DNA of 64,000 nt from Actinomycetota bacterium. Lineage in GTDB: Bacteria > Actinomycetota > Nitriliruptoria > Nitriliruptorales > JAHWKO01. The position numbers and the translations under genes are program-made. Below the pieces are notes generated by a model. That model was given only the letters and a program-made list of their open reading frames with translations. It was not told the DNA's origin and did no database searches. Shown here one piece after another: positions 13,455-54,427 of the stretch (the first letter of the stretch is position 1; the number at the start of each line of letters is the position of its first letter). The DNA lies in NCBI GenBank assembly GCA_019347675.1, contig JAHWKW010000004.1, positions 1 through 64,000 of the forward strand. Reading direction: 5' to 3'.

Positions 13455-13487
13455 AGCTCCTCTCGCGCCGCTCCTGTAGAGCGTCGC

Positions 13488-15182: not shown

Positions 15183-15222
15183 CGAAGCCTCCGAGCGCTC
15201 GGGGCGGGTGCGGCCATCGTCC

Positions 15223-15768: not shown

Positions 15769-16154
15769 TTGAGGACCCCCTTCCGCCACGCGTAGAGAAG
15801 ACCGAGTGCCAGGACACCGATGAAGACGAACATCTCGAGCAGCGCGAACGTCGCGCTGACCGGCCCCCCCGCCTCCAGCCCGCCGAGGATGACCGCCCAC
15901 GGGAAGATGAAGACGCTCTCCACGTCGAACACCACGAACAGGAACGCGAAGACGTAGTAGCGGATGTTCATCTGGGTCCACCCGGAGCCGGCCGGGTCGA
16001 CCCCGCACTCGTAGGTCGAGAGCTTGCCGGGGCTGGGCAGGTCCGGTCGTATCAGTCGGTTGAGGGTCATGATCCCCGCGTACAGCCCAACACCGGCCAG
16101 GGCGAGGACCGCGAACGTCACGTACTGGCTGTAGAAGCTCACCGGTCTCTCCAT
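15759..16154 (-). CDS. nuoA: Complex I subunit A (11-subunit operon)
   Basis: A three-helix membrane subunit of 131 aa with the NuoA motifs [24 protein letters not shown] and the C-terminal KWD. I chose ATG 16154 ([11 protein letters not shown]); an in-frame ATG at 16208 would put the start about 14 bases from the putative -10. No strong ribosome binding site precedes either. Confidence 0.92.
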
Positions 16155-16221
16155 CGGGAACGTGCGGAGCCCCGACGGACACGCGCCTGTCACCGCGGGG
16201 GACGGCATCCGGGGGGCCGCA

Positions 16222-18974: not shown

Positions 18975-18977
18975 GGC

Positions 18978-20510: not shown

Positions 20511-22575
20511 CTCCCACCAGGAAGGCGGCGACCACCGCGACGGCTCCGAGCACCAGCCCCGCGGCGTACGCCCGGATCAGACCGGTCTGGACGGTCCGCA
20601 CCCGGGCGGCGGCACCGGCCGTCAGACGCGCGGTGCCGTCGACCAGACCGTCGATCGCCGTCACGTCGAACCAGACCAGGAAGCGGGAGAACGCGCCGCC
20701 GCCACGGACGAAGATCCGGTCGTACAGTTCGTCGACCCACAACGCGCGGCGCATCGCCAGCGCGATCGTGCCGAGGTTGGCCCGTACCGGGTCGCGTTCG
20801 GGGAAGGGCCGCAGGTACAGCAGGTAGGCGAGCCCGATCCCCGCGAAGGCCGCGAGCAGCGACAGGCCGGTCAGGGCCATCTCGGACAGGGCGGGCTCGG
20901 TCGCCCCTCCGCCCGCCGGCAGGTGCGCCACCGACGGTTCCAGCCAACGTTCGAGTGGGCCGTCGTGGGACAGGTTGAGCACGCCCCCCAGAGCCGAGGC
21001 GGCTGCCAGAACGACCAGCGGGACCGTCATGGACGGCGGCGACTCGTGGGGATGCAGCTCCACGGCGGCGTCCTCGGTCGGGCGGGTCCCCGCCTGCTGC
21101 GCCGAGCCGGCGGCCGTGTCCGCTGCCGTCTGGTCATGCTGGGGCGCCGCTTCGTCCCCGGCCCACCGTTGCGGCCCCAGGAACGTCACGAACAGCCAGC
21201 GGCTCATGTAGAAGCCGGTGAACGCCACGGCGACCAGGCCCGTGAACCAGATCACGGTGTGCCCCTCCTCGTACGCCGCGGCGAGGATCTGCTCCTTCGA
21301 GAAAAACCCGGAGAACGGGAAGATCCCGCTGATCGCGAGCACGGCGACCACGCTGGTCCAGAAGGTGATCGGCATCACCCGCCACAAGCCTCCCATCCGC
21401 CACATGTCGGTGCGGTTGGCCACGGCGTGCATCACCGATCCGGCGGCGAGGAAGAGCAGACCCTTGAAGAAGGCGTGGGTCACCAGGTGGAAGATGCCGG
21501 CGCCGAACGCGCCGACACCGACGCCGACGAACATGTAGCCGAGCTGGCTGACCGTCGAGTAGGCCAGGACACCCTTGATGTCGTCCTGCTGGACGGCAAC
21601 GACCGCTGCGAACAGGGCGGTGGCAACACCGACCACGGCGACCGCCAGGAGCGCGGTCTCGCTCTCGATGTAGATCGGTGACGCGCGGGCGACCATGTAG
21701 ACCCCGGCCGTCACCATGGTGGCGGCGTGGATCAGTGCCGACACCGGGGTCGGACCCGCCATCGCGTCAGGCAGCCAGACGTACAACGGGATCTGCGCGG
21801 ACTTGCCGACCGCGCCGCCGAGCAGCAGCAGCCCGATCGCGGTGGCCGCACCACCCTCACCGAGGATGTCGGAGGCCGCAGGGAGCACGTCGGCGAAGGC
21901 AAGCGAGCCGAACTCGGCGAAGATCAGGAACAGACCCACAGCGAACGACGCGTCCCCGATCCGGTTGACGACCATGGCCTTCTTGGCCGCGACCGCGTTC
22001 GGCATCTCCTCGAACCAGTACCCGATCAGCAGGTAGGAGCACAGCCCAACCAGTTCCCAACCCACGAACAGCACGGCGAAGTTGCTGGCCAACACCAGCA
22101 CCAGCATCGAGAACAGGAACAGGTTCAGGTACGCGAAGTACCGCGGTTGACGTCGGTCGCCGTGCATGTAGCCGATCGAGTACAGGTGGATCACGGATCC
22201 GACGCCCGAGACCACCAGGGCCATGACCGTGCTGAGCGGGTCGAGCAGGACGTCGGTGGTCAGCTGCAGCTGCCCGACGTCGATCCAGGTGTACACGTCG
22301 ACGACGACGGCGTGAACGTCGGGGCCGGCCCCAAGCAGCTGCAGGAACACCGCGACCGTCACCACGAACGATCCAGCGGCTGCTGCGGTGGCCAACCAGC
22401 CGGACCGTTCCCCCAACCGGCGACCCGCGAACAGCAGGATCACGAAACCGGCCAGAGGCAAGGCCGGGATCAACCAGGCGAGGCTGGCGACGCCTGCGGC
22501 GGCCTCCGGGTCGAGGCGGTAGCCGACCTCGCCACCTTCGGCGGCCAGGATGATGACGGTGGCGGTCGTCGGCAC
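20503..22575 (-). CDS. nuoL: Complex I subunit L (14-subunit operon)
   Basis: A 690-aa antiporter-like subunit with GWELVGLCSYLLIGYWFE, IPLYVWLPDAMAGPTPVSALIHAATMVTAG and the KEQIL loop. A soluble Ala/Gln/His-rich insert (about residues 470-510) precedes the last core helix and the lateral-helix region. The GTG start at 22575 lies 2 bases after the nuoK stop. Confidence 0.95.
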   Translation of the reverse strand: MPTTATVIILAAEGGEVGYRLDPEAAAGVASLAWLIPALPLAGFVILLFAGRRLGERSGWLATAAAAGSFVVTVAVFLQLLGAGPDVHAVVVDVYTWIDVGQLQLTTDVLLDPLSTVMALVVSGVGSVIHLYSIGYMHGDRRQPRYFAYLNLFLFSMLVLVLASNFAVLFVGWELVGLCSYLLIGYWFEEMPNAVAAKKAMVVNRIGDASFAVGLFLIFAEFGSLAFADVLPAASDILGEGGAATAIGLLLLGGAVGKSAQIPLYVWLPDAMAGPTPVSALIHAATMVTAGVYMVARASPIYIESETALLAVAVVGVATALFAAVVAVQQDDIKGVLAYSTVSQLGYMFVGVGVGAFGAGIFHLVTHAFFKGLLFLAAGSVMHAVANRTDMWRMGGLWRVMPITFWTSVVAVLAISGIFPFSGFFSKEQILAAAYEEGHTVIWFTGLVAVAFTGFYMSRWLFVTFLGPQRWAGDEAAPQHDQTAADTAAGSAQQAGTRPTEDAAVELHPHESPPSMTVPLVVLAAASALGGVLNLSHDGPLERWLEPSVAHLPAGGGATEPALSEMALTGLSLLAAFAGIGLAYLLYLRPFPERDPVRANLGTIALAMRRALWVDELYDRIFVRGGGAFSRFLVWFDVTAIDGLVDGTARLTAGAAARVRTVQTGLIRAYAAGLVLGAVAVVAAFLVGGA

Positions 22576-22577
22576 GG

Positions 22578-22877
22578 TCAGCCTCGCAGCAGCCGGGGCA
22601 CGTCCACGTCGAGCGTGCCTCGTCGCCGCCAGATGTTGACCAGCAGGGCCAGGCCGACCACGACCTCCGCGGCGGCGACCACGATCACGAAGAAGGCGAT
22701 CACCAGGCCATCAGCGGCTCCCCACAGGCGCGAGGCGGACACGAGCGTGAGGTTGACGGCGTTGAGCATCAGCTCGACGCACATGAAGATCACGATCGCG
22801 TTGCGCCGGGTCAGGACCCCGACCAGCCCGATCCCGAACAGGACCCCCGCCAGCATCAGGTAGTACCCGATCGGCAT
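22578..22877 (-). CDS. nuoK: Complex I subunit K (14-subunit operon)
   Basis: A 99-aa, three-helix subunit with [19 protein letters not shown] and the second Glu in [17 protein letters not shown]. Its ATG overlaps the nuoJ TGA by one base (TGATG). Confidence 0.95.
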
Positions 22878-23626
22878 CAGCCGCCCCCGTCCGTGGCGGA
22901 CCCGCCTGGGTCGTGGGGCGCCGCAGCAGCGCCGGGCACGAGCGTGTCGCCGGGGACGACGTGGTCAACGAGCGGCTCGGACTCACCGACCTCGGCTCGT
23001 GAACGGTCGGCCCGACCGGCAGGTCGGCGTCCACCCAGCACCATCGCCGCCACGATGGCCAGCAGCAGCAGCAGAGCGGCGAACTCGAAGACGAACGTGT
23101 ACCGGGTGAAAAGACGCTCCGCGACGAAGCCGACGCTGCCGGTGGGGCTGGCTTGGATCGCCTCGGCCAACCCCTCGCAGCGCACCGCACCCGCGGCCGG
23201 GGCAACGCTGGCCGCCGCCCCGCAGACCGACTGATCGCCCGTGAACGGCCCCACGAACACGAACCCGGCGCCCGCGACGAGCATGGCCCCCAGCAGCCAC
23301 GCGCCGCCTCGGATCGCCGGATGGCGCTCGATCAGCAGGTCGTCGCGGGACACGCCCAGCAGCATGATCACGAAGAGGAACAGCACCATGATGGCGCCGG
23401 CGTAGACGATGATCTGGATGATCGCCAGGAACGGCGACTCGAGCACGAGGAACAGCCCGGCGATCGCGACGAAGTTCAGCACGAGCATCAGCGCCCCGTG
23501 CACGACGTTGCGCATGGTGATCATCGCGACCGCCGCACCGACCGCCACGGCCGCCAGGACCCAGAACAGCACCACCTCCCCCGTGGCGCTGCCGGCCGCC
23601 TGCTGGGCGAGGAGGAGCACCCTCAC
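22877..23626 (-). CDS. nuoJ: Complex I subunit J (14-subunit operon)
   Basis: A 249-aa, five-helix subunit. It has [21 protein letters not shown] and [17 protein letters not shown], followed by a Pro/Gly/Asp-rich tail of about 55 residues. A Cys/Ala-rich loop (about 135-160) separates the fourth and fifth helices. The GTG start overlaps the nuoI stop as GTGA. Confidence 0.94.
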
Positions 23627-24531
23627 TGGTCCCTCTGTGCCCCGCCGGCGTCCTTGTCGGAGCGCTCCTGCGGCGGGCTCTGCGGTGGCTGTGGCGCCTC
23701 CCCGCCGTGGGGCTCCTTGCGCTGGTCGTCCTCGTCGAGCACCGGCGCCCCGACGTCGCCGCTGGCTTCGCGCAGGTGCGCGGTGTCGCGGCCCAAGCCC
23801 ACCGCGTGCTGGTCGGACTCGCGGGTGGCGATCTCATCGCGGGCGTGGACGGGAGCGGTCGAGATCCGCTCCTCCAGGCCGCTCATCCGCCGGCCGGCAC
23901 GGACCATCTGTCGGGGACCAGCCGGCTCGTAGTCGCCACCGACCAAGTCCGGAGGTGTGGCCGCCAGACCGCCGTAGTAGTTGATCTTGCGCCGGCGCAC
24001 GTCCGCATCCCGGTGCGGTGGCCTCGTCGCGCCTTCGGGGAGCGGTGCCAGGAGGCGCTCCTTGGTGTAGATCAGGCCGTAGCGAGTGTCGGCGGACAGC
24101 TCGTAGTCGTGGAGCATGGTCAGCGCTCGGGTCGGGCACGCCTCGATGCAAAAGCCACAGAAGATGCAGCGGTTGTAGTTGATCTGGTAGTCGGACGCGT
24201 ACCGCTCCCCCGGCGAGTACCGCGCCGCGGCGGTGTTGTCGGCGCCCTGCACGAAGATGGCATCCGCCGGGCACGCCCAGGCGCACAACTCACAACCGAT
24301 GCACTTCTCCAGACCGTCCTCGTAGTAGTTGAGCTGGTGGCGGCCGTGGAAGCGCGGCTGGGGCTCACGCTTGTCGTCGGGGTACTCGGTCGTCACCGGC
24401 CTGCGCAACGTCGTCCGCAACGGGACCTTGAACCCACGACCCAGCGCCGTGCGCGTCAGGAACAGGAAGAACAGGCCGACCGCGGCGACGAACGCCACGA
24501 TCGTCCAGATCACGGCAGGGATGGTCATCAC
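23623..24531 (-). CDS. nuoI: Complex I subunit I, 2[4Fe-4S], with disordered tail (14-subunit operon)
   Basis: A 302-aa ferredoxin-like subunit. A hydrophobic N-terminal segment (about 6-26) precedes the cluster cysteines C77, C80, C83, C87 and C122, C125, C128, C132. From about residue 190 the chain is polar and Pro/Asp/Glu/Gln-rich with no hydrophobic core, an extension of about 110 residues unlike that of the other NuoI. The GTG start overlaps the nuoH stop as GTGA. Confidence 0.94.
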
Positions 24532-25778
24532 GGGACCCTCTCACGGGAGTGGATCTCCTCGGGTTCGTCGAACGCGCGCCGGTCGTCCATCGGGCGACGA
24601 ACGGTGCGGCGCGCGCCGCGGGAGAACAGCGGTGCCAGGACGTACAGGAGCACGGCAGCGGCGACCCCGGCCACCGCCACGGTCGTTCGCTGGCGGGCTT
24701 CCAGCTCGGTGTTGACCATCACCATGAACGCCGTGGCCAGGACCCACACCAGCCCCAGCGGGAGCATGAAGCGCCAACCCACGTCCATCAGCCGGTCGTA
24801 GCGGAACCGCGGCAGGGTCGCCCGCAGCCAGACGAACACGAAGACGAAGACCGCGAGCTTGACCAGGAACCACAGCACCGGCCACAGCCCGGCAGCGGTC
24901 TCGGTCAGGACCGGACCGGACGGTCCGCCGAAGAACAGGGTCACGATCAACGCCGACCCGACGATCACGTTCATGAACTCCCCGAGGAAGAACATCGCGA
25001 ACTTGATCCCGGTGTACTCGGTGTGGAACCCGCCGACGAGCTCACCCTCCGCCTCGGGGAGGTCGAAGGGATGGCGGGAGGTCTCGGCGATCAGCGCGGT
25101 GAGGAACAGGATGAACGCCGGGAAGAGCGGGATCACGTACCAGTTGGGGATCCCCGCCACGAGGCCGGGACCTGTCTGCTGGCCGACGATCTCGGAGACC
25201 CGCAGCGTCCCGCTGTAGACGAAGACGGCGGCGACGGCCAGCCCCAGGGGGAGCTCGTAGCTGATCATCTGCGCCGCCGAGCGCACACCGCCCAGCAGCG
25301 GGTACGCCGATCCGCTGGACCATCCGGCGAGCACGATGCCGTACACGTGGATCGAGCCCATCGCCAGGAACCACAGGACCCCGATGTCCGGATCGAACAC
25401 CTGCAGCTGGAACGTCTCGCCGAACAGGGTGACCGGCCGCCCGAAGGGGACGATCGCCGCGGCGAGCAGCCCGGTGACCGGCGCGATCAGAGGTGCCAGG
25501 TAGAAGACGGGGGCATCGACCATGTCGGGGCGGACGTCCTCCTTGAAGAACAGCTTCACGCCGTCCGCCAGCGACTGCAGCAGCCCAGCTGGACCCGCCC
25601 GGTTGGGCCCGATACGGGCCTGCATGCGGGCCAGGGTGCGCCGCTCGGCCCAGATCAACAGGGCGGTGGCGGGGAGCAGGAACCCGACCAGGACCAGGAC
25701 GCGGACCAGGTGCACCCACAGGGGCAGTCCTGCCTCGTCCACGGTGAACGACGGGACGCTCTGGGCGAGCAGGGTCAT
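24528..25778 (-). CDS. nuoH: Complex I subunit H (14-subunit operon)
   Basis: A 416-aa membrane subunit with [55 protein letters not shown] and [17 protein letters not shown]. The ATG at 25778 overlaps the nuoG stop as ATGA. It has an extra C-terminal helix and a basic tail beyond the usual length. Confidence 0.95.
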
Positions 25779-28216
25779 CGCAGCCCTCCCGCCGCTTGGG
25801 CCGGCGCAGGCTGGGCCACCTCGACCGTGACCCACGTCGGCCCGCCGGTGTCGCTGGCCAGGGTCGTGGCCGGCGCATCGGTGGAGTTGGTCGGCACGTA
25901 CACGACCCCCCCGACCACGTCGTCCTCGACCGCGGCCGTGAGCGTCAGCTGGCCGTGCTGGGAGCTCACCGTGACCGGCTGACCCGGAGTGATCCCCAGC
26001 CGCTCAGCGTCCGCGGTGTTCACCGCCGCGAACGGCGGCTTGCCGGTCTTGAGCATGTTGTCCGCCCCAGCGCTCATCGCGCCCCGGTCGAGCAGGAGCG
26101 GGTACGTGAGCAGCTGCAGCCGGCCGTCGGCGTCGTCGGCGTCAGCACCGGCCAGCTGTTGCGAGCCGGCTGCGCCGACGGACCACGGCCGGCCAGACAC
26201 GGCTGGCAGGCGCGCCATCTCCCGGCGGACGTCGTCGAGGTGGCGGTGACCGAGGTCGTGACCGAGGAGGAACGCCAGCTGGCCCAGGATCTCCCAGTCC
26301 TCGTGCGCCAGGTTGGGCTGGCTCACGGCCAGGTTCAACCGCTGACGGCGGCCCTCCCAGTTGGTGAACGTGCCGTCGCGTTCGTAGGCCGCTGCGGCAG
26401 CCAGCACGATGTCGGCGTACCGGGCCGTGTCGTGGTGCATCAGGTCCTGCACGATGACCGTCCGGACCCGCTCGAGGGCGGACCTGGCCAGCCGGGGACG
26501 GTCGAAGTCGCGGGCCGGGTCGACCCCGACCAGGTAGAGCACGTCGATCTCGCCGCGGGCAGCCGATTCGAGGATCGCGGTGGCGTCGCGTCCACGCGCG
26601 GTCGGGATGTCGCCCCAGATCGCTTCCACCTCGGCGCGTTCGTCGTCGTGCTCGAGTCGGCGCCCCCCGGGCAGGATGCCCGCAACCAGTCCCGCGTCGA
26701 GCGCGCCGCGGGCGTTGTTGCGACGCGGCACCCAAGCCAGCTTGGCGCCGATCGACTCCGCCAGGCGCCCCGCCGCTGCCAGCGCACCACGCGCAGCGCC
26801 TCCGCGCTCACCGACCAGGATGACCGCCGCGTCGCCGGCCGCTTCGAGCGCCTCCCTGACGTCGGCCGCGGCCCGGTCCAGGTCACCGGCTCCATCGGCC
26901 AAGGCGCTCAGGACAGCGGCCTGCCCTCCGGGCGCGGTGTGCAGCCGTCGCCACAGGATCTTGGAGATCGAGCCGGACCGGGGGCCGATCGACACGAGCT
27001 TCGCCTGGTTGTCGCGCCACGCCTTGCGCAGGCGGAGGAACAGGATCGGGACCTCCTCCTCGGGGTCGAGGTCGACCAGCACCGTGACCGGTGCCGCTTC
27101 CACGTCGCCGTACGTGACGCCTCGCCGGGTCGGGACGACGGCCAGCACCTCGTCCTCGTCCGGACCGGCGGCGCGGGCCCGGAAGTCCACGTCGTCCGTG
27201 CGGAGCACGCTCCGGGCGAACCTGCTCAGCACGTAGGCGTCCTCGTCCGGCAGGTGCCCGCCCGTGAGAACCGCCACGCTGTCGGCGCCGCGCAGCCTGT
27301 CCGCCGCGGTCTGGAGCGCCTCCATCCACTCAACCGGGACGAGGTCGCCCCCTCTGCGCAGCATCGGCTGGTCGATCCGCTGCTCGTGCTGGAGGTACTT
27401 GAACGCGAAGCGGCCCTTGTCGCAGTTCCACGCCTCGTTGACCGCCGGATTGTCGCGGGCGACAACCCGCATGATGCCGCCTCGGCGAGTGTGCACGTTC
27501 ATGTTGCACCCGGCCGAGCACAGGTTGCAGACGCTGGGTCGGGACTCGAGATCGAACGGCCGAGCACGGAACCGGTAGGAGGCCGAGGTCAGAGCGCCAA
27601 CCGGGCAGATCTGGATGATGTTGCCCGAGAAGTAGTCGAAGTACGGCTCGTCCTCGTAGATGGCGACCTGCTCCAGCGCGCTGCGCTCGAACAGCTCCAG
27701 GAAGGGCCGGCCAGAGATCTGCCGCGCGAAGCGGGTGCACCGGGCACACAGCACACACCGTTCGCGGTCGAGGAGGACGTTGGGGGACACCGCCACCGGC
27801 TTGGCGTAGCGACGCTTCTCGTCGATGAACCGCGACTCCCCCGGTCCGTGTTCGAGCGCCTGGTCCTGCAGGGGGCACTCTCCGCCCTTGTCACACATCG
27901 GGCAGTCGAGCGGGTGGTTGATCAGCAGGAACTCCAGCTGCGCCTTCTGTGCGTCACGAGCCCACTCGGACGTCAGATGCGACTTGACGACCATGCCGTC
28001 CTGGCACGGCGTCGTGCACGAGGTCATCGGCTTGCGCTGGCCTTCGACCTCGACGATGCACTGACGGCATGCCCCGGCCGGGTCGAGCAGGGGATGGTCG
28101 CAGAAGCGCGGGATCACGATGCCCATCTGCTCCGCGGCGCGGATGATCAGCGTGTCGGGGGGCACGGTGATCTCGCGGCCGTCGATCGTCAGCGTGACGG
28201 TCTGGTCGTCGGTCAT
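25775..28216 (-). CDS. nuoG: Complex I subunit G, iron-sulfur (14-subunit operon)
   Basis: An 813-aa peripheral subunit that carries electrons from NuoF. In order: a [2Fe-2S] ferredoxin domain (C39, C50, C53, C67), the His-Cys cluster (H101, C105, C108, C114), the CxxCxxC cluster starting at C154, and a CxxCxxxC motif near 226-233, as in NuoG proteins with cluster N7. A molybdopterin-oxidoreductase-like region without obvious catalytic residues follows. I chose the ATG at 28216, which overlaps the nuoF stop as ATGA. Confidence 0.96.
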   Translation of the reverse strand: MTDDQTVTLTIDGREITVPPDTLIIRAAEQMGIVIPRFCDHPLLDPAGACRQCIVEVEGQRKPMTSCTTPCQDGMVVKSHLTSEWARDAQKAQLEFLLINHPLDCPMCDKGGECPLQDQALEHGPGESRFIDEKRRYAKPVAVSPNVLLDRERCVLCARCTRFARQISGRPFLELFERSALEQVAIYEDEPYFDYFSGNIIQICPVGALTSASYRFRARPFDLESRPSVCNLCSAGCNMNVHTRRGGIMRVVARDNPAVNEAWNCDKGRFAFKYLQHEQRIDQPMLRRGGDLVPVEWMEALQTAADRLRGADSVAVLTGGHLPDEDAYVLSRFARSVLRTDDVDFRARAAGPDEDEVLAVVPTRRGVTYGDVEAAPVTVLVDLDPEEEVPILFLRLRKAWRDNQAKLVSIGPRSGSISKILWRRLHTAPGGQAAVLSALADGAGDLDRAAADVREALEAAGDAAVILVGERGGAARGALAAAGRLAESIGAKLAWVPRRNNARGALDAGLVAGILPGGRRLEHDDERAEVEAIWGDIPTARGRDATAILESAARGEIDVLYLVGVDPARDFDRPRLARSALERVRTVIVQDLMHHDTARYADIVLAAAAAYERDGTFTNWEGRRQRLNLAVSQPNLAHEDWEILGQLAFLLGHDLGHRHLDDVRREMARLPAVSGRPWSVGAAGSQQLAGADADDADGRLQLLTYPLLLDRGAMSAGADNMLKTGKPPFAAVNTADAERLGITPGQPVTVSSQHGQLTLTAAVEDDVVGGVVYVPTNSTDAPATTLASDTGGPTWVTVEVAQPAPAQAAGGLR

Positions 28217-29613
28217 GCGCGGCTGCCCTTCCCGCCAGTGGTCGCCTGCGCGGCCAGCGGCAACCCGGTCCGGGGCGGCTCGATCGTGCCCTCCTCCGAC
28301 TCGCGGTGGGGATGCAGCGGCTCGACCTCCTCGGCCCGGGGGGTGGCGTCGAACGGACAGCCGCGCTGCTCGACGTGTGCCTCCCACTCGTCGCGGAAGT
28401 ACTTGATCGCGCTCTGTGGGGGTTGGGCCGCGCCGTCGCCGAGCGCGCAGAAGCTCCGCCCCCACATCTGGGTGCAGACATGATCGACGATGTCGATGTC
28501 GGCCATGCGTCCCCGGCCGGTCTCCAACCGGGTGAGGACCTGGGTGAGCCAGAACGTCCCCTCACGGCAGGGAGTGCACTTGCCGCACGACTCGTGCTCG
28601 TAGAACTGGTTCCAGTTGAGCACGGCGTCCACGGTGCAGGTGCGGTCGTCGAAGACCATCAACGCGGCCGTGCCGAGCATCGTCCCGGCCTCCTGCAGCG
28701 ACTCGAAGTCCAGCCCGACGTCGAGCGCGTCGCCGGGGAGCATCGGGACCGACGACCCGCCAGGGACGAAGAACTTCACGGGCCGGTCGTCGATCATCCC
28801 CCCGCACAGGTCCTCGACGATGGCGCGGATCGGGGTTCCCATCGGGACCTCAAAGTTCATCGGTCGCTTGACGTGGCCGGAGACACACACCAGCTTGGTG
28901 CCCGAGCTGTCCTCGGTCCCCCACTGGCGCCACCACTCGGCACCGTTGGAGACGATCCCCGGGACGCTGCAGATCGTCTCCACGTTGTTCACCGTGGTGG
29001 GGCTGGCGTACAGCCCCGACTGTGCGGGGAATGGCGGACGCAGTCGCGGCTGGGCGCGGCGGCCCTCCAACGAGTTCAGCAGCGCGCTCTCCTCACCGGC
29101 GATGTAGGCACCGGCGCCGCGGTGCAGCGACATGTGCAGACGGCGGCCGGTCCCGAACACGTCGTCGCCGAGGTAGCCGCGTTCGTAGGCCTCGACGATG
29201 GCGTCGCTGAGCCGGCGGGCCGGCCACTCGTACTCGCCGCGGATGTAGATGAACGAGTGCTCGCTGCGCATCGCGAGGCACCCGATCATCAGCCCCTCGA
29301 GCAACAGGTGGGGGTCGCGTTCGAGGAGCCAGCGGTCCTTGTAGGTCCCCGGCTCGGACTCGTCGGCGTTGCAGATGTAGTAGGACGGCTGGGTCGGCTC
29401 CTGGGGCATGAACGACCACTTGACGCCGGTCGGGAACCCCGCCCCACCGCGCCCGCGCAGCCCCGACTCCTTGACCACGTTGATGATGTCGCTCGGGTGC
29501 ATCTCCAGGGCCTTGCGCACCGCCTGGTAGCCGCCGGTGCGCTCGTACCCGTCGAGCGTGTAGGCGTCGTCCTGGTCGAAGCGCTGCGTGAGGACCTTGA
29601 CCTCCTCGACCAT
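28213..29613 (-). CDS. nuoF: Complex I subunit F, NADH/FMN-binding (14-subunit operon)
   Basis: The NADH-oxidising subunit, 466 aa. GRGGAGFPTG (54-63) and NADESEPGT (82-90) are the FMN and NADH sites, and CGKCTPCREG near residue 350 plus a later Cys bind [4Fe-4S] N3. A polar tail of about 45 residues follows. ATG at 29613 overlaps the nuoE stop as ATGA. It is absent from the other nuo operon. Confidence 0.97.
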   Translation of the reverse strand: MVEEVKVLTQRFDQDDAYTLDGYERTGGYQAVRKALEMHPSDIINVVKESGLRGRGGAGFPTGVKWSFMPQEPTQPSYYICNADESEPGTYKDRWLLERDPHLLLEGLMIGCLAMRSEHSFIYIRGEYEWPARRLSDAIVEAYERGYLGDDVFGTGRRLHMSLHRGAGAYIAGEESALLNSLEGRRAQPRLRPPFPAQSGLYASPTTVNNVETICSVPGIVSNGAEWWRQWGTEDSSGTKLVCVSGHVKRPMNFEVPMGTPIRAIVEDLCGGMIDDRPVKFFVPGGSSVPMLPGDALDVGLDFESLQEAGTMLGTAALMVFDDRTCTVDAVLNWNQFYEHESCGKCTPCREGTFWLTQVLTRLETGRGRMADIDIVDHVCTQMWGRSFCALGDGAAQPPQSAIKYFRDEWEAHVEQRGCPFDATPRAEEVEPLHPHRESEEGTIEPPRTGLPLAAQATTGGKGSRA

Positions 29614-30764
29614 CAGCGTTCACCTTCCCGGTCTTGGCGATCTGCCTGGTCTTCCTGGTCGTGTGGCGGATCGCCGGCATGGGCTGACTCGAAGCCGGGG
29701 TCGGTACCGATGCGGCGAACGTGTGCGGTCCCACCACTCTGGCTGAGGGAGGCCTTCTGCGGCGGCGGGCCCTCCTCTTCGGCCTCCTCATCGGCCTCCT
29801 CGTCGGCGTCCTCTTCGGCCTCCTCGTCGGCGTCCTCTTCGGCCTCGCCGTCGGGGTCCTGCTCGGACTCGCCTTCCTCCTCCACCCCGGGTTCCTCGTC
29901 GGACGAGGGCTCAGCGTCCGCCTCGGCCCCGGGTTCGTCCTCGGCCGAGGGCTCCGCGTCCTCCTCGCCTCCAGCCCCGGCCTCGGGCTCCCTCGCCGGC
30001 CTGTCGAGGCGTTCACCGGCAGGGGGCTGCTGCGACGGCGCGCGGCGGTCGTGCTCGTCGGGTGGCGCCACCCCGGTGGTGTCGCCGACCTCCGGACCCG
30101 GGCGGTGGACGCCCGGCCCGCCCAGCGGGTGGGCCTCGTCGAGGACGCGCTCCGCTGGCGGCTCCCCGTAGGAGACCATGTCGGACTGGGCGGCCCGCAC
30201 CGCCGCGGCGTGGAGGCGTTCGTGCTCGTCGGCCCCGGCCAGACGCCAGCACACCTCGCGGAACGTCGGCGGCGGTTCGCCGTTGACGGGGAGCGGTGGC
30301 TGGCCCCGACGGACCTGCTCGAGGAGCTCCATCGCCTTGTCCGCCGACAGGCCCTCGTAGTTCTGGTAGTTGACCTGCACGACGGGCGCGCTCTCGCAGT
30401 TGCCGAGGCACTCGAGGTGCTTGACCGTGACGCCGGTCTCGGGGTCGTGTTCGCCGCCGAGCCTGTCCACCCAGCGGTCGAAGATCTCCTGCCCGCCGCG
30501 CACCTTGCACGAGAAGTTCGTACAGACCGTGACCAGCCAGTCGCCAGGGTCTTCGCGCTCGTACATCTGGTAGAAGGTCTGGACGGCCTGGACCTCGGCC
30601 TTGGTGAGGTCGAGCTTCTCGGCGCAGAACGCGATGCCCTCCTCGGTGATGTAGCCCTGATCGTGCTGCACCAGGTACAGCAGCGGCATCAGCGCCGACT
30701 GCGGCTGCGGGTAGCGGGAGATCAGCCGGTCCGCCGTCGCGTGGATCTTGTCCGACAGGGCCAC
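29613..30764 (-). CDS. nuoE: Complex I subunit E with long acidic C-terminal extension
   Basis: The thioredoxin-fold [2Fe-2S] subunit. The ligands are C81, C86, C119 and C123, in CTNFSCKVRGG and CLGNCESAP. The conserved domain ends near residue 150; the remaining about 220 residues are disordered and very acidic, with runs of EEADEEAEEDADEEA-type repeats, against a usual length of 160-200 aa. The acidic part is encoded by a DNA tandem repeat. Start is ATG at 30764. Confidence 0.95.
   Translation of the reverse strand: MALSDKIHATADRLISRYPQPQSALMPLLYLVQHDQGYITEEGIAFCAEKLDLTKAEVQAVQTFYQMYEREDPGDWLVTVCTNFSCKVRGGQEIFDRWVDRLGGEHDPETGVTVKHLECLGNCESAPVVQVNYQNYEGLSADKAMELLEQVRRGQPPLPVNGEPPPTFREVCWRLAGADEHERLHAAAVRAAQSDMVSYGEPPAERVLDEAHPLGGPGVHRPGPEVGDTTGVAPPDEHDRRAPSQQPPAGERLDRPAREPEAGAGGEEDAEPSAEDEPGAEADAEPSSDEEPGVEEEGESEQDPDGEAEEDADEEAEEDADEEADEEAEEEGPPPQKASLSQSGGTAHVRRIGTDPGFESAHAGDPPHDQEDQADRQDREGER
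29771..29846. repeat. 24-bp tandem repeat inside nuoE (acidic tail)
   Basis: Two perfect 24-bp units (29793-29816 and 29817-29840, starting GGCCTCCTCGTCGG) are flanked by partial copies. They are in frame (8 codons each) and encode Glu/Asp/Ala repeats, so copy-number change would not break nuoE. Confidence 0.85.
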
Positions 30765-30804
30765 GGTCAGCCTCCGCGCATCGGCGGCTCGTCGAGACGG
30801 GGTC

Positions 30805-32118
30805 TCACCGGTCCACCCCTCCCATCACGGGGTCGAGGGTGGCGATGATGGCGATCAGATCGGCGACCATGTGTCCTCTGGACATGTGATCGATGGACTG
30901 CAGGTTCACGAACGACGGATCGCGCACGTGCACGCGGTACGGCTTGGTGGTCCCGTTGGACACCACGTGGTAGCCGAGTTCGCCGCGGGGCGACTCCACC
31001 GGCACGTACACCTGCCCCGGGGGGACCGCGAAGCCCTCGGTCACGAGCTTGAAGTGGTGGATCAGCGCTTCCATCGACTCGCCCATGATGTGGCGGATGT
31101 AGGTCGGATCGTTCCCGATCCCGTCCGGGCCCAGACCCAACTGCGCCGGCCAAGCGATCTTCTTGTCCTCGACCATCACGGGACCATCCGGGAGCGCGTC
31201 GACCGCCTGGTCAATGATCCGCATCGATTCGCGCATCTCCTGCATGCGGACCAGGAACCGGGCGTAGGTGTCAGCCCCCGTCTCGGTGGCCACGTCGAAG
31301 TCGTACTGCTCGTACCCGCAGTACGGCTGTGCCTTGCGCAGGTCCCAGTCCGCACCCGCCGCGCGGAGCAGCGGGCCGGTGACCCCGTAGCGGATGGCGT
31401 CGTCGGCTTCCAACACGCCCACGTCCTGGGTGCGATGGATGAAGATCGGGTTCTGCTCGAGCAGGTCCTCGTACTCGGCGAGACGCTCCGGCAGGTAGGA
31501 GATGACGTCACGGCACTGCTGTGCGAAGTCGGCCGTGACGTCCGCGGCCAGCCCACCGGGACGGACGTACCCGTGGTTCATCCGCAGCCCGGTCTGCGCC
31601 TCGAAGACGTCGAGGATGTTCTCCCGCTCGCGGAAGCCGTAGATCATCATCGAGATCGCGCCGAGCTCGAAGCCGCCGGTCGCCAACCACACCAGGTGGC
31701 TGGCGATGCGGTTCAGCTCCATCATGATGACCCGCACCGCCTGCGCACGGGGCGGGGCGTCGATGCCCAGCAGCTTCTCGACCGCGAGGCAGTACGCAAC
31801 CTCGTTGAAGAACGGCGACAGGTAGTCCATCCGGGTGACGAACGTGGTGCCCTGCGTCCACGTCCGGTACTCGGTGTTCTTCTCGATACCGGTGTGCAGG
31901 TAGCCGATGACCGGCTCCACGCTCATGACCGTCTCGCCCTCGAGCTCCACGACGAGGCGGAGCACGCCGTGGGTCGAGGGGTGCTGGGGGCCCACGTTGA
32001 CCGTGAGCCGGCCTTCGGTGACGGCGTCCTCGAGCACCTCCCAGTCGGCGCCGCTGACCCAGATCTCGTCGTCCGACCCGCCGTACCCGGCCGCGCCGGT
32101 GCGCTCGTCCACGCTCAT
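30805..32118 (-). CDS. nuoD: Complex I subunit D (14-subunit operon)
   Basis: A 437-aa, 49-kDa-type subunit with [33 protein letters not shown] and the C-terminal [12 protein letters not shown]. It begins with ATG at 32118; the longer upstream frame overlaps nuoC. It is about 40 residues longer than the paralogue at 12230-13417. Confidence 0.96.
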
Positions 32119-32137
32119 GGCTGGATCCCTTCGAACG

Positions 32138-32758
32138 TCACGGACCCACCTTCCCGCCACCGGCCCCCGGCACGTCGCGTGACCACACCCGCTCGTCGGG
32201 CGGCGGGATGAACGCCCCGTGGTAGTCGGTGTCGACCCCGCCGAGCGGGTAGTCCTTCCGCTGCGGATAGCCGTCCCACTCCTCGGGCATCAGGATCCGG
32301 ACCAGGTTGGGGTGGCCGTCGAAGTGCACCCCGAAGAAGTCGTACACCTCGCGCTCGTGGAAGTCCGCCGTGGGGTACACCGACGTCACGCTGGGCACGG
32401 TGGGCAGCGCCTGCGGATCGTCGTTGACCGCGACGACCAGCCGCAACCGGTGGTTGTTCGACATCGACAGCAGGTGGTAGGTCACCTCGATCGTGCCGCG
32501 GTCGCGGGTGAGGCGGTTCGGCGGCCAGCCGGTGGTCGACAGCTGCGGCTCGACGACGTGCTCCCCTCCGGGCCAGTGCACCCCCGAGACGTCCGACAGC
32601 AGCTCGCAGGCCAGCTCCTCGTCCTCCTTGCAGAAGCGGACGACGTCGCGGATCCTCTCCGCCGGCACGAACACGGTCAGCTCGCCCCGTGCCGTGGTCG
32701 TGTCGACCTCATCGAACCGTTCCCGGATGCGGTCTGCGATCGTCTGCAGTTCAGCCAC
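32138..32758 (-). CDS. nuoC: Complex I subunit C (14-subunit operon)
   Basis: A 206-aa, 30-kDa-type subunit with [20 protein letters not shown] and [11 protein letters not shown]. The GTG at 32758 ([10 protein letters not shown]) gives a normal length; the frame is open upstream but overlaps the nuoB end. Unlike the other NuoC it has only a short tail. Confidence 0.94.
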
Positions 32759-32778
32759 GCCTACGTCCGTCCCCGCCC

Positions 32779-33264
32779 TCAGTGCTGGACCGTCGTTTGG
32801 AAGCGTTCCCGTTTGATCTGCTCGTGCAGCTTCATGATCCCGTCCATCAGCATCTCGGGCCGCGGCGGGCATCCCGGGACGTACATGTCGACGGGGACGA
32901 CGTGGTCCACGCCTTGCAGCAGGGCGTAGTTGTTGAACATGCCGCCGGAGGTCGCACACACGCCCATCGACAGGACCCACTTCGGATCAGCCATCTGGTC
33001 GTAGACGCGGCGCAGCACCGGGCCCATCTTCACGCTGACGCGTCCGGCGACGATCATCAGGTCCGCCTGGCGGGGCGAGGCCCGGAACACCTCCATGCCG
33101 AAGCGGGCGATGTCGTAGTGGGCTGCGCCGGTCGCCATCATCTCGATCGCGCAGCACGCCAGCCCGAACGTGGCCGGCCACGTCGATGCGCTGCGGCTCC
33201 AGTTGACGAACTTCTCGACGTTCGTCAACAGGATCCCGGCCGGGAGCTTCTCTTCTAGTCCCAC
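32779..33264 (-). CDS. nuoB: Complex I subunit B (14-subunit operon)
   Basis: A 161-aa subunit with cluster N2 ligands C37-C38 (GLACCAIEM), C103 ([11 protein letters not shown]) and C132 (VPGCPPRPE). The GTG at 33264 lies inside the last codons of nuoA, the same 10-base overlap as in the other operon, pointing to common descent of the two loci at this junction. Confidence 0.96.
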
Positions 33265-33614
33265 TCCAGACCTCCCGCGCGGTACTCGTAGACCAGTCCG
33301 ATGGCCAGCACAGCGAGGAAGACCGCCATCGCGCCGACACCGAACCAGCCGAGCTGCCTGAACACCACCGCCCAGGGGAAGACGAAGACGACCTCGACGT
33401 CGAAGATCAGGAAGGACAACGCCACGAGGTAGAACTTCACCGCGAACTGCGCTCCGCTGACCTCGGCGAGCGGTTCGTTGCCGCACTCGTACGCCGCGAG
33501 CTTGCTCGGGTTGGGCCTCTGCGGCCCGACCATGTGGCCCACGAGCAGCGAGCCGCCGCTGAACGCCGCCGCGACCCCGAGCAGGATCGCGATGGGTACC
33601 CACTCACCGAGCAC
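33255..33614 (-). CDS. nuoA: Complex I subunit A (14-subunit operon)
   Basis: A 119-aa, three-helix subunit with [26 protein letters not shown] and C-terminal EWD. The GTG at 33614 is preceded by GAGGAGG. First gene of the 14-subunit operon; a 138-base gap separates it from the MenJ-like gene. Confidence 0.95.
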
Positions 33615-49683: not shown

Positions 49684-50619
49684 TCAGGCGGGGACGGGCT
49701 CGCGCTCGGCGGTGCGGTCCTTCTCGCGGTCCTTCTCGCGCTGCTCCACCCGGTCGAGCCCGAACAGGCAGGCGCCGAACAGCACCGCGGCGATCGCAGT
49801 CCAAACCGCCGACGGGAACCAGATCGCCCCGGGGTCCTTGAAGGCGTAGAAGTTCGCCTCTTCGACGACGAACTCCTGGGGATCGGATGCACCCCCCGGC
49901 TGGACGTAGCTGGCGACGATCTGGAGCTTGGCACCAGCCACCCGCAGGCCGCGGTCACGGGTGACGAGGATCTCGGGCTCATCAGGATCGTCCTCGCGCG
50001 GCTTGACCCGAGCGCTCAGGAACGGCGACGCCGGCTCGAGGCCCTCGACCTGCGACGGGTCGGGGATCTTGTCGTTGATCGCCCGCCGACGTTGCTGGCC
50101 CAGCAACGGGGCGCCGGACTCGCTGGTCGGGAAGTACACCGACAGCATCCGGTCTGCGGCGGGGGACAGGTCACCGGTGAGCTGGTCGTAGCGGGGATTG
50201 TCATCGAGCTCCTCGTCGGAGGCGTCGGGCATGCCGACGAACTCGGCTGGGGTCTGGAAGGCGTCCAGGTCGTTGGTGACCTGGAAGTACTCCGCCCGCT
50301 CGGATCCCGGTTCCATCGGGAACCACTTGCCCTGGTAGTGATCGACGGACTGCCCGGGGAAGTACGTCAGGCCGGTCGCGATCGGCGTCCCCGGCGCACC
50401 GAACCACCAGAACAGCCCGATGGCCGTCGCGAACGCGAAGAACGCCGTGCCGTAGATCAGGGCACCCTTCTTCCAGCCGTAGTTGGACCACAGCAGCACG
50501 AACACGCTGCCCGAGAAGAAGATGAACCCGATGATCGGGACGATCGTCGAGGCGATGTGGGTGCCCGGGATCCCCTCCTCGGTGGCCAGCAGCAGCGGCA
50601 GGTCGAGCAGTTCAGGCAT
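49684..50619 (-). CDS. Membrane protein of unknown function in the bc-complex cluster
   Basis: A 311-aa protein. Hydrophobic helices at about 20-42, 50-72 and one near the C-terminus (265-290), with a soluble domain of about 190 residues between them, largely Asp/Pro/Gln-rich. No cofactor motif (no CxxCH, no conserved His pairs). It starts with ATG 16 bases after the diheme cytochrome gene and precedes the cytochrome c maturation genes. Context suggests an accessory subunit or assembly factor of the bc complex. Confidence 0.65.
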   Translation of the reverse strand: MPELLDLPLLLATEEGIPGTHIASTIVPIIGFIFFSGSVFVLLWSNYGWKKGALIYGTAFFAFATAIGLFWWFGAPGTPIATGLTYFPGQSVDHYQGKWFPMEPGSERAEYFQVTNDLDAFQTPAEFVGMPDASDEELDDNPRYDQLTGDLSPAADRMLSVYFPTSESGAPLLGQQRRRAINDKIPDPSQVEGLEPASPFLSARVKPREDDPDEPEILVTRDRGLRVAGAKLQIVASYVQPGGASDPQEFVVEEANFYAFKDPGAIWFPSAVWTAIAAVLFGACLFGLDRVEQREKDREKDRTAEREPVPA

Positions 50620-50634
50620 GGGTTCCTCCGGGTC

Positions 50635-51570
50635 TCAGGACGCCCGCTGTTGGATGCTCTGGAGGTAGTCCACCAGCCGCGTGATCGCATCCTCGGTGAG
50701 CACCCCTTGCCATGCCGGCATCGGGGGCAGGCCGCCCGGCACCCGCCGCCCCTCCTCGATCGTGTGTCGGACCGCCTCGCGCGCGGCACGGTCGTTCTCC
50801 GGCGTCCCGTCGGCGCCGTACCGGGCGAACTCGTGGATCAGCTCGGGAGCGGGCGCGGGACCGTCGGCGCGCTGTCCCGACCCGCCCGGGCCGTGGCAGC
50901 GGACGCAGTTGGCGTCGAAGATCTCGGCCCCGCCCGCCCCGCGGAACGCTTGCGGCTCTTCGACCTTGTCGACCTGGATGGACAGCAGGTAGGCCACGAT
51001 CGATTCGATCTGCTGGTCGTTCATGGCCCCCCCGTACGCCGCGCTCCACGCGGGCATCGGCGTGCCGGCCCGACCGCGCCGGATCGTCTCGAGCATGAAC
51101 TCCTCGACGTCCTCGACGTTGGGGTTGTCCTCGTACCGGGCGACGAAGTTGTTGAGGGCCGGTGCCGGCCACGACGCCTCCAGTCCCGACCCGGGCGGCG
51201 GCTGGGCGCTGCCGCCGCTGGCGTTTCCGCCGTGGCACTGGGCGCACGCCTCGGCGAACTCGAGCCGACCGTGCTCGAGGTCACGCTCGTAGAACACGTC
51301 CTTCCACTCGTTGATGCGGGTCGGCTCCAGCACCCAGTACACCGGGAGGAAGAACGCCATGAACAGCGTCAGCGCGACCCCCCACGACATCGCCCGCTCC
51401 AGGCCGGTGCTCTCCAGTTCGTCGTCGGAGTGGTAGGGGCGCATCGACAGCGGGATGTCGCCGGCGCGTCGGGGTCCGCGGCGCCGGCCAGGTCCGACCA
51501 CGAAGTACGCCGCCGCGAAGCCCGCCAGCGCCACGAGCAGCACGATGACGGCGATGTCCCTTGCTTCCAT
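50635..51570 (-). CDS. Membrane-anchored diheme cytochrome c
   Basis: A 311-aa protein with helices at about 6-26 and 62-82, then two class I cytochrome c domains: CAQCH (C109-H113) and CVRCH (C222-H226). Likely sixth ligands are Met in GTPMPAWS (about 172) and LPPMPAWQG. Encoded after Rieske, this is the electron-accepting cytochrome of the b6c-type complex, equivalent in role to QcrC. ATG 51570. Confidence 0.92.
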   Translation of the reverse strand: MEARDIAVIVLLVALAGFAAAYFVVGPGRRRGPRRAGDIPLSMRPYHSDDELESTGLERAMSWGVALTLFMAFFLPVYWVLEPTRINEWKDVFYERDLEHGRLEFAEACAQCHGGNASGGSAQPPPGSGLEASWPAPALNNFVARYEDNPNVEDVEEFMLETIRRGRAGTPMPAWSAAYGGAMNDQQIESIVAYLLSIQVDKVEEPQAFRGAGGAEIFDANCVRCHGPGGSGQRADGPAPAPELIHEFARYGADGTPENDRAAREAVRHTIEEGRRVPGGLPPMPAWQGVLTEDAITRLVDYLQSIQQRAS

Positions 51571-51601
51571 GGTGCCTCGCGGGTCGGTCGGACGTCGGTC
51601 T

Positions 51602-52198
51602 TCAGATGTCGATGCAGTGCGGCCCCTCGGGCTCCTGCTGCAGGACGTTGGCGGTCCGGGCAGGGCCGGTCAGGACGATCCCGGTGCTGGCGACGAAGTT
51701 GCCGTCGTCGTCGATCTCGCTGGGGAACCGATCCAGGCCCCGCGGTGCCGGGCCACCGGTCCACTCGCCCAACCGGTTGTACTTCGACCCGTGGCAGGGG
51801 CACTCGAACCACTGCGACGACTGGCACCACGGCACCCGGCAGCCCAGGTGCACGCACTTCTGGTACAGCGCCATCAGCCCCACGCCGTCGTCGGTGACGA
51901 CGTGGTCCTCGCCGTAGGCTTCCTCGGCGCCGGGAATGTTGGGGTCCCAGGTCACCACGTACAGGCGACCTGCGGGGTACTCGAACGGCGCGCTCTCCGA
52001 CTCGATGTCGCTGAGCAGCTCATCGACCGACCCGACCGGGATCTGCGCCCCGAAGCCCTCGCCGAGGTTGGGCCACAGGAACCCCAGCGACGCGGCGCCG
52101 AACGCGCCCAGCCCACCGGCGGTCCCGGCGACCAAAGCGGTCCGCAGGAAGTCGCGGCGCTTGATCGTGGGCAGGTTCCAGCCCTTGGTCTTAGCCAT
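51602..52198 (-). CDS. Rieske iron-sulfur protein
   Basis: A 198-aa Rieske subunit of a cytochrome bc complex. A twin-Arg signal (KRRDFLRTALVAG, 13-25) merges with one membrane helix; the [2Fe-2S] boxes are CVHLGC (C115, H117, C120) and CPCHGS (C133, C135, H136). It has a single N-terminal helix, unlike the three-helix QcrA of mycobacteria. ATG 52198, upstream of the diheme cytochrome. Confidence 0.95.
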   Translation of the reverse strand: MAKTKGWNLPTIKRRDFLRTALVAGTAGGLGAFGAASLGFLWPNLGEGFGAQIPVGSVDELLSDIESESAPFEYPAGRLYVVTWDPNIPGAEEAYGEDHVVTDDGVGLMALYQKCVHLGCRVPWCQSSQWFECPCHGSKYNRLGEWTGGPAPRGLDRFPSEIDDDGNFVASTGIVLTGPARTANVLQQEPEGPHCIDI

Positions 52199-52225
52199 GT
52201 CGGCGCATCACTCCTGTCGTGGCCG

Positions 52226-53056
52226 CTACATCTCGAAGTACAGGCCGTCGAGCCAAGGCCAGATGAAGTTGAACCCGGGGCCGCGGAAGAACGAACCGAA
52301 CACCACCAACCACGTCCACATCACCATGAAGAAGGTGAAGGCCATGGCCGCGAACTTGCGGTACTCGGGGTGCATCGACGGGTTGCGGTCCAGGTAGGGG
52401 GTGGCACCGAGGACGATCAAGCCGACGCCCGGGATCGTCACGCCGGCGACCATCGGGTGGAAGTAGCGCAGCAGCTCCTGCAACCCCAGGAAGTACCACG
52501 GCGCCTTCGACGGGTTGGGCGTGAGATTGGGGTTGGCCAGCGCGCGGAAGGTCGGATCGAGGAAGTAGCTCACCACGAGCAGTAGTGCGGAGACCGCCAG
52601 CAGCGAGACGAACTCGACCGCGAACAGGTGCGGCCAGGTGTACACCTTGTCCGCCTGCTTGCTCTGCACCTGCTGGATGCCCTCGGGGGGGATCATCGCC
52701 AGCAGGCGGTGGGTGTGGTCCTCGCGCGTCTGGAGGTTCGGCCCGCCCCCGTCCGGTCCGAGCGCGGCCGCGACCCGTGCGGCCCGCTGCGCGGGCGTGA
52801 GCCGCCCCGCGGGCACCTCCTCGGTGGCGGTGGCCGCCTTGGTCGCCGGGACGCCCTCTTCCCCGTCGCCGACGGCGGCTTCCGCGGGTTCCTTCCGCGC
52901 CGCGCCCTCGTCGGCCGCGCCGGCCTCTTCACGGCCCTGGGCCTTGGCCTTGCGAACGGCCGCCGCCTTGGCCTTGGCGCGGGCGATCCGCTCGCTCTTG
53001 CCCTCGGCGATCAGCCGGTCGTAGGTCTCCTGGTCGATCTCGACCTGCTCGGACAT
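52226..53056 (-). CDS. Cytochrome b subunit IV-type protein with N-terminal basic module
   Basis: The C-terminal half of a split cytochrome b. 276 aa: residues 1-44 are a basic module (EIDQETYDRLIAEGKSER...), about 45-125 are low complexity, and the core has three helices. The quinol-site motif reads KAPWYFLGLQELLRYFHP, as in Firmicutes b6c complexes, in place of PEWY. The module closely matches the NuoI tail at 10090-10230. ATG at 53056, 38 bases after the cytochrome b6 stop. Confidence 0.9.
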   Translation of the reverse strand: MSEQVEIDQETYDRLIAEGKSERIARAKAKAAAVRKAKAQGREEAGAADEGAARKEPAEAAVGDGEEGVPATKAATATEEVPAGRLTPAQRAARVAAALGPDGGGPNLQTREDHTHRLLAMIPPEGIQQVQSKQADKVYTWPHLFAVEFVSLLAVSALLLVVSYFLDPTFRALANPNLTPNPSKAPWYFLGLQELLRYFHPMVAGVTIPGVGLIVLGATPYLDRNPSMHPEYRKFAAMAFTFFMVMWTWLVVFGSFFRGPGFNFIWPWLDGLYFEM

Positions 53057-53093
53057 CAAGCCTCCTTGGGCAGTGGGGCGGGAACCCAGGCCA

Positions 53094-53897
53094 TCACAGC
53101 GGCCCCGAGATGCCGCCGTCCTTGCGGATCCGCCAGAAGTGCACGGCCAGGAACAGGACCAGGATGAACGGCAGGAACAACACGTGGAGCACGTACCACC
53201 GCAGCAGCGTGTTGGGCCCGATCTCCACGCCACCGAGGAGGACGAACTGCACCTGGCGGCCGAACACCGGCGTGTAGCCCATCATCGAGGTGCCGACCTG
53301 TACCGCCCAGATCGCGAGCTGGTCCCACGGCAGCAGGTACCCGGTGAACGACAGCAGCAGCGTCAGCTGCAGGAGCATGATCCCCACGACCCAGTTGAAC
53401 TCCCGGGGAGGCTTGTACGCCCCGTGATAGAAGACCCTGGCCATGTGCAGGAACACCGTGAACACCATCAGGTGGGCGGCCCACCGGTGGAGGTTGCGCA
53501 CCAACTGCCCGAATGTGACGTTGGCGATGATGTCCCGCATGTCCAGGTACGCCAGTTCCTGCCCGGGCCCGGCGGTCGGCCGGTAGAAGAACATCAGGAA
53601 GATGCCGGTGATCGTCAGTCCGACGAACAGGAAGAACGACAGCCCCCCGAGGCAGTACGTGTAGGTCAGCTTCAGGCCGTGACGCTTCACCTTGACCGGG
53701 TGCAGGTGGTACAGCACGTTGTTCATGGCCGCGAGCGCACGGTCACGGGACGTGTCGCGGTAGCCCCGCCGGTAGATCGACCCCGGGCGGAACATCGACT
53801 TCCACACGACGTTGTCCTGGATCCGGCCCTTGACGTCGTTCAGATCCTTGGGCCGGCGCTCCTTGAGCCGCTCCCGCAGCTCACCGATCTTCGACAC
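53094..53897 (-). CDS. Cytochrome b6-type subunit
   Basis: The N-terminal half of a split cytochrome b, about 267 aa, four helices. The two b-heme His pairs lie in LHRWAAHLMVFTVFLHMARVF and YVLHVLFLPFILVLFLAVHF. Cys82 in YTYCLGGLSFF is at the position that binds the extra heme c(n) in b6f and Bacillus b6c complexes. I chose GTG at 53897 because GAGGAG precedes it; GTG 53933 (12 residues longer) is possible but has no ribosome binding site. Confidence 0.9.
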   Translation of the reverse strand: MSKIGELRERLKERRPKDLNDVKGRIQDNVVWKSMFRPGSIYRRGYRDTSRDRALAAMNNVLYHLHPVKVKRHGLKLTYTYCLGGLSFFLFVGLTITGIFLMFFYRPTAGPGQELAYLDMRDIIANVTFGQLVRNLHRWAAHLMVFTVFLHMARVFYHGAYKPPREFNWVVGIMLLQLTLLLSFTGYLLPWDQLAIWAVQVGTSMMGYTPVFGRQVQFVLLGGVEIGPNTLLRWYVLHVLFLPFILVLFLAVHFWRIRKDGGISGPL

Positions 53898-53995
53898 GCT
53901 GGCGATCTCCTCGCGTCGGTCCCCGGTCACCACGCCGACCGATGGGTGACCCGCGTCGGCGCGTCACCTGAGCACGGCGGTGGTGGCCCATGCTG

Positions 53996-54343
53996 CTAGT
54001 AGCCCTCGACTCGCCCGAGCCACAGAGCGTCGGACGGGCACCGCTCCACGCAGATCGCGCAGCGGGTGCACTCGGCGTCGTCGATGATGAACACCGCACC
54101 GGACGTCTCCGCTAGCGACTTGATCTCCGGGTTGGTGGCATCCCGGATCACCGCGGGGTCCATCATGTAGATGCACTCCCACGGGCACACGTCCTCGCAG
54201 GCGCGGCACAGGATGCACAGCTCGGCGGTCAGCCCGATGTGGCGCTTGGGCTTGACCCGCTCCTGCAGCCACTGCGCGTCGACCGTGTCGACCGTGTAGT
54301 CGTCGAACATCAAGGGATGCTCACCCCGGTCGGTCTTACCCAC
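53996..54343 (-). CDS. 2[4Fe-4S] ferredoxin in the bc-complex cluster
   Basis: A 115-aa soluble ferredoxin. Cluster cysteines C43, C46, C49, C53 and C92, C95, C98, C102; the two halves are separated by a longer linker (about 38 residues) than in clostridial ferredoxins. GTG at 54343 follows GGAGGAGG. Lying between an unknown membrane protein and cytochrome b6, it may pass electrons to or from the quinone pool. Confidence 0.88.
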   Translation of the reverse strand: MGKTDRGEHPLMFDDYTVDTVDAQWLQERVKPKRHIGLTAELCILCRACEDVCPWECIYMMDPAVIRDATNPEIKSLAETSGAVFIIDDAECTRCAICVERCPSDALWLGRVEGY

Positions 54344-54427
54344 GCTGGCCCTCCTCCGTCGCGGCGGCACGCCTCCCGGACGGGAGGCTCCTGCTGCGGT
54401 GGTACCGCATCGTCGACGTCCCGGCCA

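Follow-up and report, generated by a model that had tools for sequence, protein, structure and literature searches.

A two-helix module recurs on respiratory proteins of deep-branching actinobacteria and suggests a common docking tag

Why should one short basic segment end a subunit of complex I and also begin a subunit of a bc complex encoded 43 kb away? The question arises in the first 64,000 nucleotides of contig JAHWKW010000004.1 of an Actinomycetota bacterium of the class Nitriliruptoria (assembly GCA_019347675.1), a stretch that we refer to throughout as the window. An earlier note on this DNA had described the segment on both proteins and read it as a common docking tag. Both copies are present and in frame, one at the C-terminal end of NuoI of an 11-subunit complex I (10105..10230, minus strand) and the other at the N-terminus of the bc-complex subunit IV (52913..53038, minus strand; IDQETYDRLIAEGKSERIARAKAKAAAVRKAKAQGREE...), and they are identical at 27 of 42 positions without gaps, including the stretches AEGKSER, AR and AKAA. 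Whole-protein BLASTP of NuoI against subunit IV, a comparison independent of any profile, gave 7e-06 after composition adjustment. The search of the full genome that the note had proposed found these two copies and no others: across the 3.49 Mb of the host, a two-row profile matched only these sites at E ~5e-25 each, values with some circularity, since the same two copies went into the profile, with the next-best match at E 0.26 and none below 0.25. A DNA pattern scan of the host genome concurred.

Both carriers are recognizable respiratory subunits. NuoI (10090..10872, minus strand, its start taken from search coordinates) contains two 4Fe-4S motifs and matches Pfam Fer4 (3.7e-10) and Fer4_7 (5e-08) as well as NCBIfam NuoI, with TIGR01971 at 2.9e-28 and 97.9 bits, under its cut-off of 113; a low-complexity Ala/Gln/Glu/Pro-rich linker, read from the sequence at approximately 10234..10400 (minus strand), leads from its core to the module. 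Subunit IV, a PetD-like protein corresponding to the C-terminal part of cytochrome b (open reading frame 52226..53056, minus strand, ATG at 53056), is identified by its match to Cytochrom_B_C (1.6e-10) and by a gene position adjoining cytochrome b and Rieske, and it too has a low-complexity stretch between module and membrane part. Its cluster (49684..54370, from open reading frames and Pfam) comprises, all on the minus strand, a diheme cytochrome c (50635-51570), the Rieske protein (51602-52198), cytochrome b (53094-53933) and, adjoining cytochrome b, a 2x[4Fe-4S] ferredoxin-like protein (53996-54370).

The window also holds its own internal control. Gene order and Pfam matches delineate two complex I clusters, of which the module-bearing NuoI belongs to the one without E, F and G (3911..16208, minus strand), whereas the 14-subunit cluster with NuoE, NuoF and NuoG (17334..33614, minus strand) is without the module; its NuoI (23623..24531, minus strand, assigned by Pfam and HMMER) serves as the negative control. 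With HMMER filters off, no module was detected in this 14-subunit NuoI or in any NuoC or NuoE encoded in the window, including the NuoC of the 11-subunit complex (13488..15269, minus strand) with its low-complexity acidic/Pro-rich tail of ~410 residues. The two complete-looking clusters stand back to back (3911-33614, minus strand) with a polyprenyl synthetase gene (16283-17329) between them, and genes that read by eye as menaquinone-biosynthesis-like and cytochrome-c-maturation-like lie between the complex I and bc clusters.

Across the host class, the module is close to universal, being present in 62 of 66 Nitriliruptoria genomes. Host proteins were assigned by BLAST to window and locus proteins together with inspection, for the subset of module hits that was fetched and classified; these loci gave 44 NuoI, 40 PetD and 35 other hosts, the last proving on inspection to be NuoC, a further protein that we call X, or fragments and frameshifted forms of NuoI and PetD. 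By coordinates, which for some genomes were compared by eye, every 11-subunit NuoI with an assembled 3' end bears the module (41 of 41, two of them across an apparent frameshift in G010 and G032), as does every subunit IV with an assembled start (~50 of 55, the remainder being cut at contig ends). In the two frameshifted cases (loci L309 and L022) the NuoI core and the module lie in different frames, probably through assembly errors, and the 11-subunit NuoI of G008 is truncated by a contig end. Only one near-complete genome (G026, 96%) is without any module, and at the thresholds used neither subunit IV nor an 11-subunit NuoI was found there. The second NuoI that these genomes encode belongs to the 14-subunit type, is 36-42% identical and was free of the module in all five cases inspected (four relatives and the window). 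Copy number on the 11-subunit NuoI ranges from one to three, and one family mostly has two or three tandem modules separated by Ala/Pro/Glu-rich linkers.

The module itself, ~38 residues long, is conserved at defined positions while the linkers vary. Among 167 copies, D2, G13, R17 and A19 are invariant, and Q3, E16, R20, A23, K24 and A26 are each found at a frequency of at least 0.95; in consensus rows, most copies on NuoI, NuoC and X have an aromatic residue at position 27, where PetD copies often have Ala. The module carries a net charge of +2 to +5, with a Lys/Arg-rich second helix whose hydrophobic moment (0.09-0.25) is not above that of shuffled sequences. AlphaFold2 modelling of a three-module NuoI, from a shallow alignment of 17 rows and with a poor overall mean pLDDT of 59.7, drew each module as a helix of 9 residues joined through a short GKS turn to one of 24-27 residues, with pLDDT of ~80-91 in all three tandem copies and ~40-60 in the linkers; the module is thus predicted to be a helix-turn-helix unit. 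We considered a low-complexity artefact and rejected it: a reversed decoy of the distant-form profile (see below), the only profile so reversed, matched at the same composition, depth and threshold 0 of 392 genomes, compared with 60 of 396 for the forward profile, so that the similarity exceeds compositional chance. Searches of Pfam, NCBIfam and PDB sequences with single modules and with the profile returned nothing credible (best PDB sequence-profile E 1.2, to an unrelated protein), and a further candidate, a short helical domain of the ChaB or DUF7218 type, was dropped when no such family appeared among the Pfam hits of 15 members.

Protein X broadens the picture. It is a predicted soluble protein found in 55 of the 66 class genomes, single-copy in nearly all, and it carries the module in families f3-f5. 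In the sister family f2, X is without the module, as judged by match position and frame length, and NuoC bears it in many genomes; the X orthologue of the host genome (locus L125 9021-9950, G000 contig C1) likewise ends without linker or module. The second half of X may resemble the PPOX FMN/F420 split-barrel fold: Foldseek aligns it to PPOX/F420 proteins with probability 1.0 and a target TM score of up to 0.70 but an E value of only ~2e-3, and Pfam PNPOx_N matches at no better than E 0.07.

To what extent does the module stay with respiratory proteins elsewhere? A scan of 84,980 species, one genome each and with fairly strict patterns derived from the class profile that would miss diverged forms, returned 75 module loci. 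Their hosts were 27 PetD, 23 NuoI, 9 X and 7 NuoC proteins plus 10 further open reading frames, which are cut off where a contig or locus ends, carry frameshifts or are fused, and look NuoI-, PetD- or NuoC-like by linker or gene position; no unrelated protein appeared as host among these loci. Module-bearing contigs in bins labelled Acidimicrobiales (L181, L229) and Dehalococcoidia (L231) are probably misbinned or mislabelled Nitriliruptoria, the L231 NuoI reading identically to that of a Nitriliruptorales bin in L016. Spread by plasmids was rejected, as tblastn against 72,556 plasmids gave no match.

Within the phylum, the class profile strongly matches families f14 and f17, on NuoI tails with one or two copies and on PetD N-termini, and matches other families more weakly, with a loop ~3 residues longer. 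A profile of this distant form accounts for the 60 matched genomes of 396 mentioned above, among them 24 Nitriliruptoria whose less significant matches tie the two forms together; in a second class it is present in 17 of 18 genomes. The distant carriers fetched comprise 19 PetD, 12 NuoI, one X-like protein bearing the module twice and a further 19, these being PetD fragments, X-like proteins or, for the most part, single-pass membrane proteins. In family f6, six proteins run module, linker, transmembrane segment, cupredoxin, and in family f44 three run signal peptide, cupredoxin, transmembrane segment, two modules; the cupredoxin domain was confirmed by Pfam in one protein of each family, and the transmembrane segments were called by reading the sequence. 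These opposite architectures predict the same topology, cupredoxin outside and module inside, and the N-terminus of cytochrome b6f-type subunit IV also faces the cytosol. In one genome (G066) the 11-subunit complex I tail, a 14-subunit complex I, a cupredoxin gene placed between complex I and cytochrome oxidase genes, the oxidase genes themselves and PetD all lie within ~50 kb. Genes for 2x[4Fe-4S] ferredoxin-like proteins also occur near PetD in this genome (L322) and adjoining cytochrome b/PetD in G150 (L324), and a small single-pass membrane protein of family f12 with a C-terminal module (L300, L301) has a weak DUF202 match (E 0.045).

The carrier list of the earlier note, NuoI and subunit IV, therefore stands and proved incomplete, since NuoC, X, membrane cupredoxins and tandem NuoI copies join it. 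Neither of the outcomes that the note had named as counting against it was seen: identifiable carriers are respiratory-chain proteins, a small membrane protein or X, with no scatter over unrelated cytosolic proteins, and in relatives the module is missing from neither NuoI nor PetD wherever the relevant ends are assembled.

Modules resemble each other more by family than by carrier. Identity between different carriers within a family is 0.743, compared with 0.670 for the same carrier across families, with family f3 as an exception (0.698 versus 0.704). Lineage signatures are common to NuoI and PetD in f17 (AAG.SERTARAKAK-like) and to NuoI and X in f5, and in f4 the modules on NuoI and X are near-identical. 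Such signatures fit recognition by a lineage-specific partner, although they could equally come from gene conversion or recent domain copying.

Several known systems offer points of comparison. The peripheral subunit-binding domain (E3_binding) of 2-oxo acid dehydrogenase complexes is a helical mini-domain of ~35-40 residues that is set on flexible Ala/Pro-rich linkers and docks enzymes of one pathway. The module is like it in size, helices and linkers, and differs in its sequence signature and in being carried by respiratory complexes; no module member matched Pfam E3_binding at E<=1 or E<=10. Dockerins and cohesins show how one recurring tag can join unrelated proteins in one assembly, but they have no sequence match to the module, which is cytosolic, and no scaffold of the kind found in those systems was identified for it. 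NCBIfam NF005832 (PRK07735), which models a Lys/Ala-rich, KAKAA-type NuoC extension, matched none of 15 module members at E<=1; its match to one PetD peptide (E 0.082, 12 bits, cut-off 431) is most likely compositional. The actinobacterial bcc-aa3 (CIII2CIV2) supercomplex is an example of physically joined respiratory complexes (for instance PMC8795186, PMC8523172), with no repeated docking module mentioned in the abstracts. It differs from a module-based arrangement in being joined by subunit contacts, and complex I is not known to be a member. We have an undescribed two-helix module on respiratory proteins of deep-branching actinobacteria that suggests a common docking tag.

A small folded unit that hangs on flexible linkers, occurs in tandem, sits at the cytosolic side of unrelated subunits of one pathway and is not on the paralogous complex is most simply explained as a docking tag. 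We lean, with slightly better than even confidence, towards the module being an autonomous cytosolic mini-domain that binds a common partner or itself and so holds respiratory complexes near each other. Its predicted helix-turn-helix of ~38 residues would extend on Ala/Pro/Glu-rich linkers from the cytosolic ends of NuoI, and in some cases also NuoC, of the 11-subunit complex I, of bc subunit IV, single-pass membrane cupredoxins and X, would bind either a single cytosolic partner shared by all or further copies of the module, and would by that binding keep the tagged complexes close together in a respiratory assembly. We infer that the bc complex and the membrane cupredoxins cluster with the 11-subunit complex I, as this best fits the carrier list. 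A bolder version, in which one docking domain on complex I, bc complex, cupredoxins and the putative flavin/F420-fold protein clusters the whole chain through a hub or multivalent self-association, is plausible to us yet falls somewhat short of probable. Counting against a docking tag are the predicted solubility of X and its module-less orthologue in the host genome, the absence in f3 of any excess of cross-carrier identity, and a structural model built from few aligned sequences and of low quality beyond the modules. The open-access literature yielded neither interaction or co-purification data for these organisms nor any report of a NuoI C-terminal extension tied to a supercomplex.

The main rival to the docking-tag reading is docking of an electron donor, as the donor of complex I without NuoEFG is a recognized open question (PMC11238625). 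Here an acidic redox carrier of the cytosol, be it a ferredoxin or a protein with F420 or flavin, would be held by the basic module where electrons enter the bc complex and a complex I lacking its NADH module. The module-bearing complex I is indeed without NuoEFG, NuoI and NuoC belong to the peripheral arm, the module is positively charged, X may resemble FMN/F420 proteins, and the ferredoxin-like gene beside cytochrome b in the window has similar counterparts in two other genomes. However, the module of the membrane cupredoxins faces the cytosol, a side on which these proteins have no redox centre, and the near-invariant residues and up to three copies suggest a protein partner recognized by more than its charge; we regard donor docking as unlikely, if still deserving attention. 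Somewhat less likely again is a tag for assembly, chaperones or proteolysis, read during biogenesis of the respiratory complexes and not in the mature chain: modules placed terminally on flexible linkers, singly or up to three together, would suit it, but nothing points to a chaperone, and a module found on X and cupredoxins but missing from the 14-subunit complex I is a less natural fit.

The membrane surface, one of the partners that the earlier note had allowed, has lost ground, while its broader idea of a common tag is partly supported by the carrier restriction and retention in relatives. A basic helix binding anionic lipids of the inner leaflet could keep the tails at the membrane, as a Lys/Arg-rich helix 2 and the many membrane complexes among the carriers might suggest. 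Yet most carriers are already in the membrane, X is predicted to be soluble, and strict conservation of D2, G13, E16, R17, A19 and K24 would be unexpected for such an anchor; an amphipathic lipid-binding helix was rejected on the hydrophobic moment of helix 2, and we hold the anchor in general to be improbable. The lowest probability, a very small one, goes to a mobile low-complexity tail that has spread by recombination between linkers and has little function beyond, perhaps, solubility or halophily. The linkers are repetitive and GC-rich, the near-identical NuoI and X copies of f4 suggest recent copying, and many module-bearing records point by their titles to lake or saline sediments, but conserved module positions between variable linkers, the restriction to respiratory proteins, the clean reversed decoy and near-universal retention in two classes all argue against it.

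The module would be a new small domain family, missing from current libraries. It bears on the question of whether bacteria keep complex I and the bc complex physically organized together, and on the electron supply of the 11-subunit enzyme; by marking complexes and electron carriers while skipping the 14-subunit complex I in the same window, the module may give a handle on the partner and on the clustering of the chain.
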